In this document: piece after piece, positions 6,693-17,031 of the stretch
Layout: each line of letters starts with the position of its first letter
Position numbering within the stretch: position 1 is the stretch's first letter
Origin: an uncultured Bacteroidota bacterium
Lineage (GTDB): Bacteria; Bacteroidota; Bacteroidia; Bacteroidales; UBA12077
Assembly (NCBI GenBank): GCA_913055635.1
Contig: CAJXLK010000003.1
Coordinates: 77,959 to 141,958 of the forward strand
Reading direction: 5' to 3'
DNA length: 64,000 bases
Position numbers and translations under genes: made by a program
The notes under the pieces: generated by a model
The model's input: only the letters and a program-made list of their open reading frames with translations
What the model was told of the DNA's origin: nothing
The model's database searches: none

Positions 6693-7949
6693 TTACCGCC
6701 CCAGGTGTCTTCGTGCGTATGGCATCACATTGGCCGGGGGCCGGCGATGCTTTAACTCATCGGCCATAAAATTCATATACGGGGCGATGTGCCCGAAGAA
6801 ATGCTGATAGCCATTGCACAGGTAATTTAACCTTTTGCCTGGCTCATCCGTCTCGATGAGCCTGTTCTTGGGGCATCCGCCCCTGCATACCGGCCGGTAT
6901 CTGCATTTTTTGCACTTTTCTGGAAGATCCGATTCCTTCCTGAAACCAAAATTGATCTGCTGTTGCGATTTCATCAGATCGACCAGGGGCGTCTCGAGGA
7001 TGTTTCCCAGGTGGTTTTCATGATAGACAAAATGATCGCAGGAATAAAGGTCCCCATTGTGTTCGATAACCGCAGTATCCCCACATGTTCTGCCGAAAAC
7101 GCACAACCCCGGATTTTGATTGACCCAGTTGGCCAGGGTGGCATCAAAGATCTGTACATAGTGTTCTCCAACATCCCGGGTCACCCATTCGTCAAAGATC
7201 GTGGATAAAAACCGGCCATATTCCAAAGGGTTCGTTGACCATTCTGTAACCGTCCCGCTTGTGGAAGAATCAGGTGATATCATCCTCAGGGCCTGATTAT
7301 CTTTTGGTTCGGCCATTTGTTCTACAATGGGTATGAATTGCATGAACCGGCTGCCGATGGATTTGAGAAACCTGTATACCTCCAGCGGATGCTGGCTGTT
7401 GTGGTTGTGTACCGTGGTTAGGGTGTTGAACGAGGCATGATGCGCCTTAAGTCGTTCAATGCCCTTCATTACCCGTTGAAAAGTACCGTTTCCCCTTTTA
7501 TCCCGCCGGTAATGGTCGTGAAGCTGCCTTGGCCCGTCAATGGAAACCCCGACGAGAAAACCATTGGCAGCCAGAAATTGCCCCCAGTCATCATCCAATA
7601 ACGTGGCGTTGGTTTGAAGGGCATTTTCAATGGTCTGTCCCCGCTTTTGATACTTTTTTTGGTAGTAAAGGGCCTTTTCAAAGAATTCCTTCCCCAGTAA
7701 GGTCGGCTCTCCTCCCTGCCATACAAAGGTAACCACCGGTGAATCCTGACTCTTTAAATATTGCCGGGTGAACGACTCCAGGACTTCATCCGCCATCCTG
7801 AACGAGGCGGTTCCTTGATACAGTTTCTTCTTCTCCAGGTAATAGCAGTACGTACAGTCCAGGTTGCAGACCGGCCCCACCGGTTTGACCATCACATGAT
7901 ATACCGCAGTACCATACTTTTTGTGGGCTTCTATAAAGGAAACATCCAT
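6693..7949 (-). CDS. Radical SAM protein, anaerobic sulfatase-maturating enzyme type (SPASM)
   Basis: The radical-SAM CxxxCxxC motif is Cys28, Cys32, Cys35 in VCNLDCTYCYY, followed by a WQGGEPTLLG segment and NALQTNATLLDDDW, both hallmarks of anSME enzymes. The C-terminal SPASM region with auxiliary 4Fe-4S ligands is visible as CGDTAVIEHNGDLYSCDHF and CKKCRYRPVCRGGCPKNR. Family members convert an active-site Cys or Ser of a sulfatase to formylglycine without oxygen. At 418 residues it has the usual length. No sulfatase gene lies in this window, so its client is elsewhere, or it acts on another peptide. It is divergent from the ferredoxin genes; a ferredoxin could supply electrons for SAM cleavage (inference). 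Confidence 0.88.
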   Translation of the reverse strand: MDVSFIEAHKKYGTAVYHVMVKPVGPVCNLDCTYCYYLEKKKLYQGTASFRMADEVLESFTRQYLKSQDSPVVTFVWQGGEPTLLGKEFFEKALYYQKKYQKRGQTIENALQTNATLLDDDWGQFLAANGFLVGVSIDGPRQLHDHYRRDKRGNGTFQRVMKGIERLKAHHASFNTLTTVHNHNSQHPLEVYRFLKSIGSRFMQFIPIVEQMAEPKDNQALRMISPDSSTSGTVTEWSTNPLEYGRFLSTIFDEWVTRDVGEHYVQIFDATLANWVNQNPGLCVFGRTCGDTAVIEHNGDLYSCDHFVYHENHLGNILETPLVDLMKSQQQINFGFRKESDLPEKCKKCRYRPVCRGGCPKNRLIETDEPGKRLNYLCNGYQHFFGHIAPYMNFMADELKHRRPPANVMPYARRHLGR

Positions 7950-8993: not shown

Positions 8994-10349
8994 ATGAATA
9001 AGCATGTCCTTGCCCTTTTGATTATTCCTGCCGCCATGATTTTAACTTTCAGTTTTATGGTTCCTCCTAAAGAAGGGGGTAAGATGGGGGATTTTGAATA
9101 CAAGGATTTTGATAAACCCGATTATTGTGGTTCATGCCATGACGATTTTTATCAGCAGTGGACCCAGTCGATGATGTCGAAGGCCTACACGCATCACTGG
9201 GATGAGATTGAATATTTCAAGTTGGCAGTGCCCCATTCCAGGAAAGATCCGGAGATGGAGGGAGCTCATGAAGGCTGCAACGGTTGTCATGCCCCGCTGA
9301 GCTATATGGCCGGGGATGTTCCCCCGCCACGGCCGGAGGAGGGTTCACGGGCCAATGAATCGGTTTCCTGTGAAGTATGTCATTTGATTAAGGGCATCCG
9401 GGGCGATACGGCCTATAACCACAATTACATTGTTCAGCCCGGTTTCACCAAATACTCTTCCCGCAAGGGCGAAAAGAGTTCGCCGGAACACCAGATTCAG
9501 ACCACCGAACTGCACAGCAAGGCTAAGTTTTGCGGGATTTGTCACAATGAAAAGAGCCCCTATGGGGCCTGGGTCAAGAGTACCCAGCTGGAGTGGGAGA
9601 ACGGGCCCTATTCGGATGAAGGCGTTCAGTGCCAGGATTGCCATATGACTAAGGCCAAAACCAAAACGGCCAAGATGGGAGCCACATACGATGATGCCAA
9701 GCTTCATCTTTTCCATGGCGCCCACGATCCGGGCAAACTTAACGGTGTGGTCGAGTTGCGCGTTCATCCCAATACCCGCGAGGCCATGATGGGCGATCCG
9801 GTCAAATTCACCGTGGCGTTGTTCAATCAGAAGACCGGCCACAAATTCCCCACGGGCTCTGTAGAAGACCGGATCTTATGGCTTCATGTGGAGGCCAAAG
9901 ACTCGGAAGGCAATGTTTATCACCTGCCGGTGGATAAGAAAGGCTTCGACGGCGAGCAGTATACCATTGCCAGTGATGCCAAGGCTTATCAGGACATGGG
10001 GTTGCCCCTGGGTAAGGAAGATTTTGACGGGGTGCAGCGGGAAGATGTGCCCAACGGCGACCGCATTTTCCGCATGCCCTTCTTTGACCCGAAAGGCCGG
10101 ATGACCATCATGCAGTGGAACACCAAGTCAACCGGGGTCGATTACCGCATCGGCCCCCGCGAAACCAAACTGGAGACTTATACCTTTAATATTCCTTATG
10201 ATATTGCTCCCGGTGAACTGAAAGTGACCGCTGTGTTGAATTATCGCCTGCTGGTCAAACCCGTGGGCGAACTCCTGGATGTGCCCGAAGAAGAATACGC
10301 CGTCCACGAAATCAACCGGCATTCAACCCAGATAACCGTGATACCTTAG
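8994..10349 (+). CDS. Exported five-haem c-type cytochrome
   Basis: A 451-residue protein with five CxxCH haem-attachment motifs: CGSCH (45), CNGCH (95), CEVCH (126), CGICH (180) and CQDCH (213). It starts with a hydrophobic signal or anchor sequence, residues 4-22 (HVLALLIIPAAMILTFSFM). The haem-rich N-terminal half resembles cytochrome c554/multihaem families. The ~220-residue C-terminal half has no haem motifs and looks all-beta. The ATG at 8994 is chosen because it begins directly at the signal peptide; upstream in-frame ATG/TTG codons (8949, 8937) would place a cysteine-containing tail before it. It should act as a periplasmic electron carrier or reductase. The next gene encodes a haem-porin fusion, so it may donate to or accept from the outer membrane (inference). 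Confidence 0.85.
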   Translation: MNKHVLALLIIPAAMILTFSFMVPPKEGGKMGDFEYKDFDKPDYCGSCHDDFYQQWTQSMMSKAYTHHWDEIEYFKLAVPHSRKDPEMEGAHEGCNGCHAPLSYMAGDVPPPRPEEGSRANESVSCEVCHLIKGIRGDTAYNHNYIVQPGFTKYSSRKGEKSSPEHQIQTTELHSKAKFCGICHNEKSPYGAWVKSTQLEWENGPYSDEGVQCQDCHMTKAKTKTAKMGATYDDAKLHLFHGAHDPGKLNGVVELRVHPNTREAMMGDPVKFTVALFNQKTGHKFPTGSVEDRILWLHVEAKDSEGNVYHLPVDKKGFDGEQYTIASDAKAYQDMGLPLGKEDFDGVQREDVPNGDRIFRMPFFDPKGRMTIMQWNTKSTGVDYRIGPRETKLETYTFNIPYDIAPGELKVTAVLNYRLLVKPVGELLDVPEEEYAVHEINRHSTQITVIP

Positions 10350-10640
10350 ACAATGAGCAATAAACAATGAGCAATGAACACTGAGCAATGAGCAATGAAC
10401 AATTAGCAATAAGCAATAAACACTGAGCAATGAACACTGAACAATGGGCAATGAACGCTGAACAATGGGCAATGAGCAATTAGCAATGAACAATGAACTC
10501 TGAACAATGGGCAATGAACAATTAGCAATAAATACTGAGCAATGAACAATGAACAATGAACAAACAGCAATTCAATCATTATTCACTCATTCACTCATTT
10601 AATCATTATTCAATCATTTAATCATTCAATCATTAATTAT
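10350..10640. repeat. Heptanucleotide array (CAATGAA/CAATGAG type) with an opposite-sense right arm
   Basis: From the base after the cytochrome stop, about 210 bases are made of diverged heptamers such as GCAATGA, ACAATGA, ACACTGA and GCAATAA. About 75 further bases are built of TCATTCA/AATCATT words, which read as the opposite sense of the first arm. It ends a few bases before the ATG of the haem-porin gene. A frame running through it (reverse strand 10323-10556) only spells repeated VHCSLF/IVQ-type peptides and is not a gene. Confidence 0.85.
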
Positions 10641-10647
10641 ATCATCT

Positions 10648-11859
10648 ATGAAAAAAGCATTACTCATCACCCTATTCACCGTCATCGGGTCCATTTTATT
10701 GACCGAGCACTGTCAGGCGATTCCTGCCTTTGCCAGGAAATACCGGATCAGCTGCAACACCTGTCATTCACCGAGTGCACCCAAACTGAAGGATTTCGGC
10801 GATGATTTTGCCGGACAGGGCTTTAAGCTGGAGGAGTATGAATCACCTGGCTATTATGTGGATGCCGGCGACGAAAAACTTTCGTTGATTCGCGACTTTC
10901 CGCTGGCCGTAAGGTTGGATGGATTTGTTACCTACAACAACGGCAATGGCAAGAAAAGCGATTTTGGCGCTCCCTACCTGATGAAGCTGCTCTCGGGCGG
11001 GGAGATTTCTGAGCACCTCTCTTACTATTTTTATTTCTACATGAGTGAACGGGGCGAAATTGCCGGGGTAGAAGACGCCTACCTGATGTATGACAACCTG
11101 TTCAACTCTGAGCTGGACATTATGCTGGGCCAGTTCCAGGTGTCTGATCCCCTGTTCAAAAGGGAATTGCGGCTTTCACTGGAGGATTATGAATTGTATA
11201 CTTCACAGATTGGTCTTTCCAGGATAACCCTCAAATATGACAAGGGGGTGATGATGACCTACGGATTTGAAACCGGTACGGATGTGGTGTTCGAAGTGGT
11301 CAACGGCAATGGCATAGGCCATGCCGGTGATTTTCATATTTTCGACCAGGATAAGTACAAGGGTTATGCGGGGCGTATCTCACAGAACATCGGCAAGTAT
11401 TTGCGGGTAGGTGGTTTTGCCTATCTGGGCAAGGAACGCCAGGCCAACAACATGGATCAGTCCCTGACCAATGAGGTGCAGATCTTTGGCCCCGATTTCA
11501 CCCTCAACATCGATGACCGCTTTGAAGTCAACTATCAATATATGGTCCGCACCGACTCGGAGGTGTTTCCCGCCGGCAATGTGGCCCTGAATAATACCAT
11601 GGAAGATGTCAAAACCAGCGGTATGCTGGCCGAGGCCATTTACAGCCCGCAGGCTGCCCAGAGCGACTGGTACCTGCTGGGAATGTACAACAAGGTGGAA
11701 TCCGATTTTGACCCGGCCGACTACGAATCAGCTACTTTTCACATGGGTTATATGTTGCGAAGAAACGTCAGGCTGGCCGGCGAATACACCTATGTGATGA
11801 ACGGCCATACCGAGAGTGACTTTGGCCGCTTCAGCCTGGGCTTCATTTCCGCATTCTAG
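10648..11859 (+). CDS. Cyc2-like fused monohaem cytochrome-outer membrane porin
   Basis: 403 residues. The signal peptide is 1-24 (ends HCQA), and the mature N-terminus is IPAFARKYRISCNTCH with one CxxCH at 36-40. It is followed by APKLKDFGDDFAGQGF and then ~330 residues of alternating hydrophobic/polar strands ending in FSLGFISAF, a typical beta-barrel end with a C-terminal Phe. The 'FARK...CxxCH...P.L..FG..F...G' layout is that of the Cyc2 fused cytochrome-porin superfamily, whose studied members oxidise Fe(II) at the cell surface. Many anaerobes carry distant relatives of unknown function, so iron oxidation is not proven. It would sit in the outer membrane with a haem plug on one face. It is downstream of the five-haem cytochrome and near a VIT-type iron transporter. 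Confidence 0.72.
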   Translation: MKKALLITLFTVIGSILLTEHCQAIPAFARKYRISCNTCHSPSAPKLKDFGDDFAGQGFKLEEYESPGYYVDAGDEKLSLIRDFPLAVRLDGFVTYNNGNGKKSDFGAPYLMKLLSGGEISEHLSYYFYFYMSERGEIAGVEDAYLMYDNLFNSELDIMLGQFQVSDPLFKRELRLSLEDYELYTSQIGLSRITLKYDKGVMMTYGFETGTDVVFEVVNGNGIGHAGDFHIFDQDKYKGYAGRISQNIGKYLRVGGFAYLGKERQANNMDQSLTNEVQIFGPDFTLNIDDRFEVNYQYMVRTDSEVFPAGNVALNNTMEDVKTSGMLAEAIYSPQAAQSDWYLLGMYNKVESDFDPADYESATFHMGYMLRRNVRLAGEYTYVMNGHTESDFGRFSLGFISAF

Positions 11860-13245: not shown

Positions 13246-14124
13246 ATGAGTAAACAGGAATTAACCCCCGAACAGGTTGAAAACGTCAAGCAGTTTCAGA
13301 AAAACGAGATCACCGAATACCACATCTATAAGCGTCTGGCAAAGAGGATAAAGGGCGACAATGCCCGGGTAATTAAAGACATAGGGGAGGACGAGCTGAG
13401 GCATTACAATTTCTGGAAATCCTATAGCGGGGAGGAAGTGAAACCCAACCGGTGGAAGGTTTTTAAGTTTTATTGGATTACCCGGCTATTTGGTCTGACC
13501 TTTGGTATCAAGCTCATGGAAAACGGCGAACAGGGCGCCCAGGAGATGTACCAGGAGGCTACCCGTTATATACCGGAAGCCGAAAGCATTGTCAATGATG
13601 AAGACAGCCATGAGGAGAACCTGATTGGCATGATTCGCGAAAAACAGCTTGACTACGTAGGATCCATCGTGCTGGGCCTGAACGATGCTCTGGTTGAGCT
13701 GACAGGAGCCCTGGCCGGTTTGACCCTGGCCCTTCAGAAAACCCAGCTGATTGCCATTGCCGGTTTGATTACCGGCATTGCCGCTTCTTTTTCGATGGGC
13801 GCCTCCGAGTACCTGTCCAACAAATCGGAAGGGAAGGATTCGGAAGCATTGCCTTCCTCCCTTTATACCGGCTTTGCCTATATCATCACCGTCTTCATTT
13901 TGATATTGCCTTATCTGGTGCTTGAAAACTATTTCATATGCCTGGCTGTGACCCTTGCCCTGGCCATCCTGATCATCCTGTTCTTCAATTATTACATCTC
14001 AGTGGCCAAAGACATGAATTTTAAGAAACGCTTTCTGGAGATGGCCATCCTGAGCCTGGGTGTTGCTGCCCTGACCTTTGGCATCAGCTACTTCATCCGC
14101 CTGTTTTTTGGGGTGGACGTTTAG
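13246..14124 (+). CDS. Ferritin-like domain fused to VIT1/CCC1 metal transporter (MbfA/Er-VIT type)
   Basis: 292 residues. The N-terminal ~130 form a rubrerythrin/ferritin-like helical bundle with candidate iron ligands in KNEITEYHIYKRLA, GEDELRHYNFW and NDEDSHEENL. The C-terminal ~155 hold five hydrophobic helices typical of VIT1/CCC1 carriers, starting YVGSIVLGLNDALVELTGALAGLTLAL and SFSMGASEYLSNKSE. Proteins of this architecture sense cytosolic iron with the ferritin-like domain and move iron or manganese across the inner membrane, usually outwards. The location between a haem-porin and the nitrite reductase genes suggests iron balance for a haem-rich respiratory chain (inference). It is preceded by repeat DNA and a promoter-like duplication. 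Confidence 0.85.
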   Translation: MSKQELTPEQVENVKQFQKNEITEYHIYKRLAKRIKGDNARVIKDIGEDELRHYNFWKSYSGEEVKPNRWKVFKFYWITRLFGLTFGIKLMENGEQGAQEMYQEATRYIPEAESIVNDEDSHEENLIGMIREKQLDYVGSIVLGLNDALVELTGALAGLTLALQKTQLIAIAGLITGIAASFSMGASEYLSNKSEGKDSEALPSSLYTGFAYIITVFILILPYLVLENYFICLAVTLALAILIILFFNYYISVAKDMNFKKRFLEMAILSLGVAALTFGISYFIRLFFGVDV

Positions 14125-14546: not shown

Positions 14547-15137
14547 ATGAAAAGGGTGCTTTCCAAAATCAAGCCTCCGGATAAGTGGAAGTTGCCGGTC
14601 ATTATTATACTGGGGATCTTTGTCGGATTAACGGTATACATTTTTTATATTTCCAAGGCCCATTCCTATCTTTCAGACCGGCCTGAAGCATGTGTAAACT
14701 GCCACATCATGGCTCCCCAGTATGCCACCTGGTCGCACAGTGCCCATCGTGAGATCACCAACTGCAATTCCTGCCATGTTCCCCATGATCATTTTTTCAA
14801 TCATTACTATTTCAAGGCGAAAGATGGTATGCGCCATGCCACCCTGTTCACCTTGCGCAAAGAGCCTCAGGTGATAGAGATCAAGGAGGCCGGGGCAGAG
14901 GTGGTGCGGCAAAATTGTATTCGCTGCCATGAGCAGCTGATCAAAGATCCGGGGCTTCTGACTCAAAGAACCCATCATACCATTGAGCAACGAACCCGGC
15001 GCAAATGCTGGGAATGTCATCGCGAGGTACCTCATGGAAGAGAAAACAGTTTGTCCCTTACGCCTTTTGCGCGTGTTCCTGTTCCGCAAAGTCCCGTACC
15101 TGAATGGCTGAAGCGTATTATGGAGGAGCAGGAATGA
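14547..15137 (+). CDS. nrfH: NrfH, tetrahaem menaquinol dehydrogenase subunit of nitrite reductase
   Basis: A 196-residue NapC/NirT-family protein. It has an N-terminal membrane anchor (residues ~16-36, KLPVIIILGIFVGLTVYIFYI) and four haem motifs: CVNCH (49), CNSCH (73), CIRCH (124) and CWECH (154). The first is followed by Ile-Met, giving the CxxCHxM arrangement in which Met55 is the unusual haem ligand described for NrfH. It passes electrons from menaquinol to NrfA on the periplasmic side. The nrfA gene follows in the same direction but after 385 bases, which is long for this pair because a repeat array sits between them. The C-terminus (FARVPVPQSPVPEWLKRIMEEQE) is a polar tail. Confidence 0.93.
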   Translation: MKRVLSKIKPPDKWKLPVIIILGIFVGLTVYIFYISKAHSYLSDRPEACVNCHIMAPQYATWSHSAHREITNCNSCHVPHDHFFNHYYFKAKDGMRHATLFTLRKEPQVIEIKEAGAEVVRQNCIRCHEQLIKDPGLLTQRTHHTIEQRTRRKCWECHREVPHGRENSLSLTPFARVPVPQSPVPEWLKRIMEEQE

Positions 15138-15522: not shown

Positions 15523-17031
15523 ATGAAATCTATTCGACAACTCATAAAGGAAAAGCCCTGGATAGGATGGTTGATTTTTTTGGTTACCGTTGTAGCGGTA
15601 TTTTTTCTGGGGCTGTTGTCTTCTTCCATCATGGAGAGGCGGGCTGAGGCCAATTTTGCTTATCAGCCCCAGGTTGATCATGGTCAGTGGGAACCCCGGA
15701 GTGAGATATGGGGAGAGAATTTTCCCCGGCAGTATGAGCGTTGGAAAGCCACCAAAGATACCTCTTTCCACACCAAGTACAACGGCAATGCGCCCATCGA
15801 TATGTTGAAACGCAATCCGCGGCTGGTGATCCTGTGGGCCGACTATGGCTTTTCCAAAGAGTATAATCAGTCGAAGGGGCATGCCTGGGCCATTCATGAC
15901 ATCCGCGATATATTAAGAACGGGTGCCCCGCTCGATGGTCGTAGCAGCCCGATGCCCAATACCTGCTGGACCTGTAAAAGTCCGGATGTACCGAGGGTAA
16001 TGAGTGAGATTGGGGCTGAAGCTTTTTATGAGGGTTCGTGGGAAGAACGCGGCCATCAGATTGTCAATCCCATTGGCTGTGCCGATTGTCATGAAGCGGA
16101 GACCATGAACCTGCATGTGCCCCGACCGGCCCTGGTGGAAGCCTTCAAACGCAACGGAAAGGATATAGAGGAAGCCACCCACCAGCAGATGCGCAGATAT
16201 GTCTGTGCCCAGTGCCATTCCGAGTACTATTTCAAGGGCGAGGGCAATTATTTGGTTTTCCCCTGGGATAAGGGCCGCGAAGTACAGGATATGGAAGCCT
16301 ACTATGACGAGCGCAATTTTTCGGACTGGACCCACGGCATCAGCAAAGCCCCGATGATTAAGGCTCAGCATCCCGATTTTGAGATTTTTATGCAGGGCAT
16401 CCATGCCGAACGCGGCCTGGCCTGCGCCGATTGCCACATGCCCTATACCAGCGAGGGAGGCCAGAAATTTACCGACCATAAAATTGTCTCCCCCCTCAAA
16501 TATATCGACAAAACCTGCCTGGTCTGTCACCAGGAGTCTGAAGAGGAGTTCCGGGAAAATGTGTATTCTCGTTTTGATAAAGTCAAAGCCAGCCAGTATG
16601 AACTGGAAAAGAAACTGGTGCATGCCCATTTTGAAGCTCAAAAGGCCTGGGAGTTGGGGGCCACCAAAGAACAGATGGAACCGGTCCTGATGGATATCCG
16701 CCATGCCCAGTGGCGCTGGGGTTATATTGCCAACAGCCATGGTGCTCCTTTCCACGCCCCCATTGAGTGCCTGCGGGTTTACAATACGGCCATCGGCATC
16801 GCCCAGGATGCCAGGCTGAAACTGTCGCGGATCCTCTCAAACCTGGGCTACAACAAGGAAGTACCCGTGCCTGATATTTCTACCAAGGCCAGGGCGCAAG
16901 AGGTGGTTGGCCTGGATATGGACAGGCTCGACCGGCAAAAGGAAAAATTCATCGATCAAGTGGTGCCGCAATGGGAGGAAAAAGCCCGGGAAAGGGAAAA
17001 AAATTACAATGTGAAAGAACTGGATAACTAA
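15523..17031 (+). CDS. nrfA: NrfA, pentahaem ammonia-forming cytochrome c nitrite reductase
   Basis: 502 residues, the usual length. An uncleaved or cleavable hydrophobic segment lies at residues 13-34. The active-site haem is held by the CxxCK motif CWTCK (148-152), diagnostic for NrfA, and four CxxCH motifs follow: 186, 228, 301 and 332. The KAPMIKAQHPDFE segment carries residues of the calcium/active-site region, and a conserved HGAPFHAP supplies distal haem ligands. It reduces nitrite to ammonia with six electrons in the periplasm, fed by NrfH. This supports nitrite respiration or detoxification coupled to menaquinol. The start ATG at 15523 has little Shine-Dalgarno signal; an AAGGAGG about 55 bases upstream belongs to the spacer. 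Confidence 0.95.
   Translation: MKSIRQLIKEKPWIGWLIFLVTVVAVFFLGLLSSSIMERRAEANFAYQPQVDHGQWEPRSEIWGENFPRQYERWKATKDTSFHTKYNGNAPIDMLKRNPRLVILWADYGFSKEYNQSKGHAWAIHDIRDILRTGAPLDGRSSPMPNTCWTCKSPDVPRVMSEIGAEAFYEGSWEERGHQIVNPIGCADCHEAETMNLHVPRPALVEAFKRNGKDIEEATHQQMRRYVCAQCHSEYYFKGEGNYLVFPWDKGREVQDMEAYYDERNFSDWTHGISKAPMIKAQHPDFEIFMQGIHAERGLACADCHMPYTSEGGQKFTDHKIVSPLKYIDKTCLVCHQESEEEFRENVYSRFDKVKASQYELEKKLVHAHFEAQKAWELGATKEQMEPVLMDIRHAQWRWGYIANSHGAPFHAPIECLRVYNTAIGIAQDARLKLSRILSNLGYNKEVPVPDISTKARAQEVVGLDMDRLDRQKEKFIDQVVPQWEEKAREREKNYNVKELDN

Follow-up and report, generated by a model that had tools for sequence, protein, structure and literature searches.

A haem-bearing porin of the Cyc2 superfamily and its pentahaem cytochrome partner: a probable electron conduit in an uncultured Bacteroidota bacterium

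The closest described relatives of the porin analysed here are the Cyc2 proteins, among them Mariprofundus Cyc2PV-1, Acidithiobacillus ferrooxidans Cyc2 and Leptospirillum Cyt572. In the passages of PMC8406198 that set out the superfamily, its members carry the motif AXPXFAR[Q/K][T/Y] ahead of a CXXCH haem site and PXL four residues past it, are at least 365 aa long and combine an N-terminal cytochrome with a 16-strand porin, for which OprO and OprP are given as templates. In metagenomes, Cyc2-like genes are used to flag iron oxidation (FeGenie). The initial annotation of this DNA had considered a Cyc2-like electron route notable in a Bacteroidota. Matched by phylum name, published surveys speak against this, as they already report Cyc2 homologues in metagenome-assembled genomes of Bacteroidota, KSB1, Calditrichota, Krumholzibacteriota and Acidobacteriota (PMC9769843, where cluster III takes in approximately 75% of all homologues) and of Planctomycetota and KSB1 (PMC10732223). 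A further survey reports genes for iron oxidation in Ignavibacteriales and Zixibacteria; Cluster 3 was the dominant Cyc2 type at most of its sites (PMC8478452).

Two other kinds of system resemble parts of the locus. In MtrCAB, MtoAB and OmcB-type conduits the genes of a porin and a multihaem cytochrome are adjacent; in MtrAB and MtoAB the barrel is haem-less, has approximately 26 strands and is partnered by a decahaem cytochrome. The ExtKL/PHC family of Geobacter and cable bacteria, described in PMC11976967, and cytochrome c552 of Thermochromatium tepidum have five haems, a c552-like fold and an Ig-like domain. Geobacter ExtKL is encoded beside the porin ExtI; when ExtI is lost, selenite and tellurite reduction falls, and ExtI is described as haem-less (PMC5877670). 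Searches of open-licence literature found no paper that pairs a Cyc2 protein with a pentahaem cytochrome or that proposes ligation of the Cyc2 haem by the N-terminus. The window, which is the whole stretch of DNA analysed (64,000 nt), carries a porin gene and a cytochrome gene that share features with each of these systems (Table 1).

Table 1. Coordinates of the porin, its parts and the neighbouring features within the window.
Feature	Position	Strand	Remarks
Pentahaem c-type cytochrome, ExtKL/c552-like, PHC family, upstream partner	8994..10349	+	Five CxxCH; C-terminal Ig-like region
Array of 14-nt repeat ACAATGAGCAATGA, approximately 16 copies	10350..10571	.	Between cytochrome and porin genes
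Monohaem 16-strand outer-membrane porin (predicted), Cyc2 superfamily	10648..11859	+	403 aa
Signal peptide, residues 1-24, predicted cleavage after Ala24	10648..10719	+	-1 residue A/G/S in 117/117 homologues (rule of thumb)
Predicted mature N-terminus IPAFARKYRIS-CNTCH, Cyc2 motif and haem site	10720..10767	+	Published motif AXPXFAR[Q/K][T/Y]
Sixteen predicted beta strands of the barrel, residues 87-402	10906..11853	+	AlphaFold model; VIA-align Z approximately 24 to porins
VIT1-domain protein	13246-14124		58 bits; rubrerythrin match below cut-off
NrfH, quinol-side tetrahaem cytochrome	14547..15137	+	TIGR03153, 168 bits, cut-off 134
NrfA, ammonia-forming nitrite reductase	15523..17031	+	NF008339, 640 bits, cut-off 595

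The porin and its relationship to Cyc2

The porin has the published Cyc2 layout. A24-I-P-A-F-A-R-K-Y32 precedes the haem site C36NTCH40, P45-K46-L47 follows four residues past it, then comes FGDDFAGQG, and the chain, longer than the 365 aa minimum, ends in Phe. The ORF is a genuine conserved gene: a single tblastn scan over genome contigs (E<=1e-3) yielded at least 412 relatives. The best 80 of these were retained as loci; their best-segment identity to the porin was 43 to 81% and nearly all were full length. Profile scans of the protein gave no Pfam or NCBIfam family above cut-off. Its sole Pfam row, Ski7, was below cut-off and was dismissed as spurious. Six further haem-barrel proteins were scanned and had no Pfam or NCBIfam family either (one row, far under cut-off).

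An AlphaFold model was made from an alignment, A2, of 56 family members selected by hand from 81. The model (pLDDT 81, pTM 0.79) predicted a closed barrel of exactly 16 strands. It grouped with 16-strand porins in Foldseek and VIA-align, with Z scores of 24.7 to Omp32, 24.2 to OprP (2o4v) and 23.9 to OprO (4rjw). The haem domain was the weakest modelled part, with residues 20-36, 44-52 and 65-74 under pLDDT 50. Matches of the porin or its haem domain to the solved structures 8yts, 3h34 and 6x89 had E values of approximately 0.1 or worse and were attributed to chance. Structure searches with the porin and the haem domain found no solved structure of a Cyc2 haem.

By sequence criteria and predicted fold the porin is a member of the Cyc2 superfamily, in its own clade and with its own partner. 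A tree was constructed from 48 rows selected from the fetched sequences, with proteobacterial plasmid genes as stand-ins for characterised Cyc2. The porin clade (24 rows) formed a single group with support of 100/99, and the ARQT-type proteins of Chlorobiaceae, Ignavibacteria and proteobacterial plasmids formed another (100/96). A third type, ARKY, from Chlorobiaceae and locus L123, was nearer the porin clade yet not monophyletic. Profile comparison aligned the porin clade with the other haem barrels over the haem domain and first strands only (hhalign probability 98.7 and 99.1). In single comparisons the porin matched an Ignavibacteria protein (L121) at E 9e-13 and a Caballeronia plasmid protein (L124) at 1e-8. 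Judged by sequence, the clade is well delimited and distinct from the Cyc2-type proteins obtained from Chlorobi, Ignavibacteria and Proteobacteria, which are stand-ins and not characterised Cyc2.

The initial annotation had read the protein as Cyc2-like, with a signal peptide, PAFARK, CxxCH, a barrel and a terminal Phe. This layout was borne out, the predicted fold has the closed barrel of 16 strands that was expected of it, and profile and pairwise comparison support homology of the haem domain to Cyc2-type proteins. In the comparisons with the stand-ins nothing placed the protein among non-Cyc2 barrels, though as a whole it lies in a separate clade and not within the stand-ins.

Haem-barrel genes are frequent in Chlorobiaceae, where 59 of 81 genomes carried one to five of them (for example L130-L159). 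They fall into two or more distinct types, ARQT and ARKY among them. Those scanned had no Pfam or NCBIfam family. On plasmid CP084173.1 of Acidithiobacillus ferrooxidans a Cyc2-type gene (L126, 2890-4257) is annotated as hypothetical and adjoins a transposase gene.

The pentahaem partner and the distribution of the pair

The CxxCH motifs of the upstream cytochrome start at 9126, 9276, 9369, 9531 and 9630. Its AlphaFold model had a pLDDT of 88.5; the cytochrome alignment, A5, held 52 of 57 partner proteins. The best solved match was the penta-haem c552 of Thermochromatium tepidum (5ze8; E 1.1e-18, TM 0.61/0.71), and the C-terminus was an all-beta region with weak Ig-like matches. The protein thus has the five haems, c552-like fold and, weakly, the Ig-like domain of the pentahaem family. 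It differs from ExtKL in scoring 55.7 bits against model NF040886, far below the curated cut-off of 250, in having no selenocysteine seen in its gene and in being paired with a haem-bearing porin. Five His residues outside the CxxCH motifs (67, 81, 166, 238 and 244) were conserved in the haem region, in 52, 49, 52, 52 and 52 of 52 sequences, a pattern suggestive of bis-His coordination at all five haems.

The first haem motif of the partner cytochromes was CX3CH in 29 of 64 proteins and CX2CH in the other 35, while the remaining four sites were always CX2CH. Examples of this variation are found in L026 (6642-7985) and L034 (6629-7987). Partners that seemed to have four haems were rejected as such, the uncounted site being this CX3CH. 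In four of 68 partner proteins the first site was missing, the ORF being cut short by a contig end or starting late.

The relationship to ExtKL raises the possibility of a substrate channel coupled to a periplasmic reductase. The porin would admit an oxyanion such as selenite, tellurite or nitrite, the pentahaem cytochrome would reduce it, and the porin haem would gate or stabilise the barrel. The role of ExtI in selenite and tellurite reduction, the phosphate and other anion porins among the best matches of the barrel, and a first haem motif that varies as a differently constrained site might are in its favour. The ExtKL score is nevertheless far under the family cut-off, ExtI is described as haem-less, and the strictly retained haem domain of the porin is left unexplained. 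With a conserved His as candidate second ligand for each of the five haems, the cytochrome also has no obvious open active site. This explanation is considered unlikely.

Of 117 loci with the porin gene, 114 had the cytochrome gene directly upstream of it in the same orientation (some loci being one genome represented twice), as did 78 of the best 80 of the at least 412 relatives. Two of the three exceptions were short of space at a contig end. The third, L109 (1492-2637), is a true solo and the sole porin of the clade found without the cytochrome; a histidine kinase gene lies upstream instead, and this one locus counts against the conduit explanation. Four loci that appeared partnerless (L051, L070, L090 and L091) had the partner, hidden by shadow ORFs or an assembly gap. 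The gap between the two genes was mostly -4 to 36 nt in relatives and 298 nt in the window, where the repeat array may have spread into the operon recently. Any other neighbouring gene recurred in 8 of 86 loci at most. The near-obligate pentahaem partner, which the initial annotation had not recognised as such, is read as the hallmark of the clade and as what sets it apart. Next to the Cyc2-type genes of six proteobacterial plasmids lie small c-type cytochromes, with a HiPIP beside one of these genes, whereas the porin has the upstream pentahaem cytochrome. The pair likewise differs from Mtr-type complexes, since the predicted barrel has 16 strands and one haem with a pentahaem partner, no multihaem wire threads a large haem-less barrel and no extracellular cytochrome was seen beside the porin.

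The best 80 porin loci span at least nine phylum-level names: Bacteroidota, Ignavibacteria, Zixibacteria, KSB1, Aminicenantes, Acidobacteria, Calditrichota, Krumholzibacteriota and Glassbacteria. Tangfeifania diversioriginum DSM 27063 (L020) is a named isolate carrying the porin. Among 395 genomes sampled from the phylum, 27 had a full-length porin and 26 a full-length cytochrome, all 26 within the 27 (Fisher p 8e-40, with no correction for shared ancestry). In five more genomes the cytochrome had no better than weak matches. Nine of 98 relative genomes, the window's own included, passed E<=0.001 for the porin, three of them by weak partial matches only. The six full-length carriers comprised four of five genomes in the genus, none of 20 in the sister genus and two of 73 in other families of the order. 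In the fifth genus member, G003, the porin was not found, but its assembly also ends inside NrfA at a contig edge. Such patchy occurrence of the pair in the order is consistent with its transfer as a unit. It could be taken to mean that the protein is an ordinary porin with a vestigial or structural haem and that the pairing reflects co-transfer and not joint function. This is very improbable, as the haem motif and mature N-terminus are fixed across the nine or more phylum-level names and the pairing is too strict for chance.

The mature N-terminus and haem ligation

The mature N-terminus was compared in 117 homologues of three classes, namely the 56 of alignment A2, 24 of 25 from a profile search, 27 of ARQT type and 10 hand-picked members of the third class. 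L100 was dropped for an in-frame TGA, and L128, L148 and L159 were excluded from the count as they gave no usable ORF. The pattern used required Pro at +2, Phe or Tyr at +4 and Ala or Ser at +5, left -1 and -3 free and tolerated various spacings. Ahead of x-P-x-[F/Y] the residue was Ala in 110, Ser in four and Gly in three homologues, the Ala of the A2 members not being independent evidence at -1 because these were fetched partly by the pattern AIPAFARK. The -3 residue was small or aliphatic. The first haem Cys was residue 12 of the predicted mature chain in all 117, that is, 11 after the new N-terminus, and signal-peptide lengths varied. The -1 and -3 residues, and this constant spacing despite varying signal peptides, are consistent with cleavage just ahead of the Cyc2 motif. 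The predicted free chain begins x-P-x-[F/Y]-[A/S] in all three classes, whose barrels differ.

Within the porin clade the proximal His (80/80) was the sole His in columns of at least 85% His. Met202 was the sole Met in columns of at least 85% Met (70/80; in the 56-row alignment the remainder were Leu, Ile or Val). The alignments of the other two classes had no invariant His or Met besides the proximal His. Lys48 and Lys113 were invariant in the porin clade.

In cytochrome f the N-terminal amine serves as a haem ligand. The mature chain of that protein begins YPIFAQ (PDB chain 6rqf_K), compared with IPAFAR in the porin, so that both start X-P-X-F-A. The likeness is claimed for the chain start alone, the haem Cys of cytochrome f being residue 21, 20 on from the N-terminus, and not residue 12. 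The parallel is suggestive only, with the alpha-amine of residue 1 as a candidate distal ligand of the porin haem. The invariant Lys48 would be the obvious rival ligand. The alpha-amine is put forward as sixth ligand because the predicted mature N-terminus lies at a fixed spacing and no class has a strictly conserved distal His or Met.

A broader proposal would take the Cyc2 motif as the mature N-terminus and the residue-1 alpha-amine as the sixth haem ligand throughout the superfamily. In this clade the haem would connect to a pentahaem relay of its own, and the resulting conduit would differ in type from Mtr-type complexes as well as from canonical Cyc2 chains. Taken as a whole, this proposal is speculative and more probably wrong than right. 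The N-terminal-amine idea renders Cyc2 haem ligation directly testable.

Electron transfer and genome context

The porin and the pentahaem cytochrome probably form a two-part electron conduit across the outer membrane. The strict pairing, the barrel model with its porin matches, the c552-like fold, the five conserved His of the cytochrome and the confinement of clustered CxxCH motifs to this locus favour this explanation. The poorly modelled haem domain and an NrfA association that shrinks within one family count against it. Electron conduction is the likely role of the porin, as the initial annotation had suggested. The single-haem domain would lie at, or plug, the periplasmic mouth of the barrel, and the pentahaem cytochrome would contact it directly, serving in the periplasm as its own relay. 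From outside, a small soluble redox partner would reach the haem via the pore and exchange electrons with it; candidates are Fe2+/Fe3+ or a chelate, a quinone and a humic. The pentahaem wire would in turn exchange electrons with the quinone pool, in this genus most simply via the NrfH and NrfA of the same locus. The evidence leans slightly towards outward flow that reduces an extracellular acceptor. The relay appears to be bis-His, which implies a low potential, whereas the plasmid Cyc2-type genes adjoin small c-type cytochromes and, once, a HiPIP. A solid acceptor would be hard to reach, as no gene for an extracellular cytochrome was found beside the porin in the locus neighbourhood.

If the clade uses a low-potential pentahaem relay, perhaps outward, some published iron-oxidation calls merit re-examination, the phyla concerned being Bacteroidota, Ignavibacteria, Zixibacteria, KSB1, Aminicenantes and Calditrichota. 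The type of the neighbouring cytochrome would then be a simple genomic rule to distinguish both kinds of protein.

Iron oxidation by the pair is one among several possibilities. The porin haem could take electrons from dissolved Fe(II) and pass them through the pentahaem cytochrome to NrfA or another reductase, giving nitrite-dependent iron oxidation. The porin has every testable published sequence feature of Cyc2, and the passages of PMC8406198 on a Cluster 1 Cyc2 report biochemically demonstrated Fe(II) oxidation. NrfHA lies with the pair on one strand in the four genus genomes that carry it, and NrfH follows the porin immediately in G001 and G004. Nitrite is a candidate electron sink because the window genome has NrfA and no haem-copper oxidase was found in it at E 1e-20, cytochrome bd being present. 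The lack of that oxidase is not general to carriers, since of 31 it was absent only from the window genome and G001. Against Fe(II) oxidation, the porin is in its own clade, distant from the Cyc2-type proteins obtained, and the barrels do not align by profile past the first strands. The relay looks bis-His and not high-potential, and the function of Cyc2 Cluster 3 homologues is termed most uncertain by their authors.

Iron had also been read from the neighbouring genes. The five-CxxCH protein, the VIT1-domain protein, NrfH and NrfA were all confirmed beside the porin, but the ferritin-like part of the VIT1-domain protein, a rubrerythrin match, fell below cut-off. The VIT gene, with a methyltransferase gene, lies between the porin and NrfH solely in the window and G002, two of the four genus genomes with the pair, and it was rejected as an iron clue. 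With the VIT gene not conserved, the NrfHA link conserved in this genus only and a partner that appears bis-His, the iron reading is weak, and Fe(II) oxidation by the pair is possible but rather doubtful.

NrfA was present in 21 of 27 porin genomes and in 5 of 20 without porin (47 genomes, p 0.0004), the latter 20 being hand-picked among genomes with weak matches and not random. Within one family the counts were 10 of 13 with porin and 3 of 7 without (p 0.17), and the association may be due to shared ancestry. In-frame TGA codons of NrfA in G269 and G351 were stops at gene ends and were discarded as signs of recoding. The NrfA homologues of these two genomes (L164 and L165) have CMHCH or CLHCH as first motif, compared with the CxxCK active-site motif in the NrfA of the window.

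The window genome is 99.3% complete. Its only clusters of three or more close CxxCH motifs were in the pentahaem cytochrome, NrfH and NrfA, by a pattern search that overlooks CX3CH and spacings over 300 nt. An anaerobic sulfatase maturase is encoded at 6693-7949 (NF010308, above cut-off), which is in keeping with a polysaccharide-degrading anaerobe and not a lithotroph. In G064, a relative from the same order, two very large multihaem genes (L013, 1106-5760) lie approximately 5.7 kb from the pair, beside a FAD/ferredoxin-type oxidoreductase.
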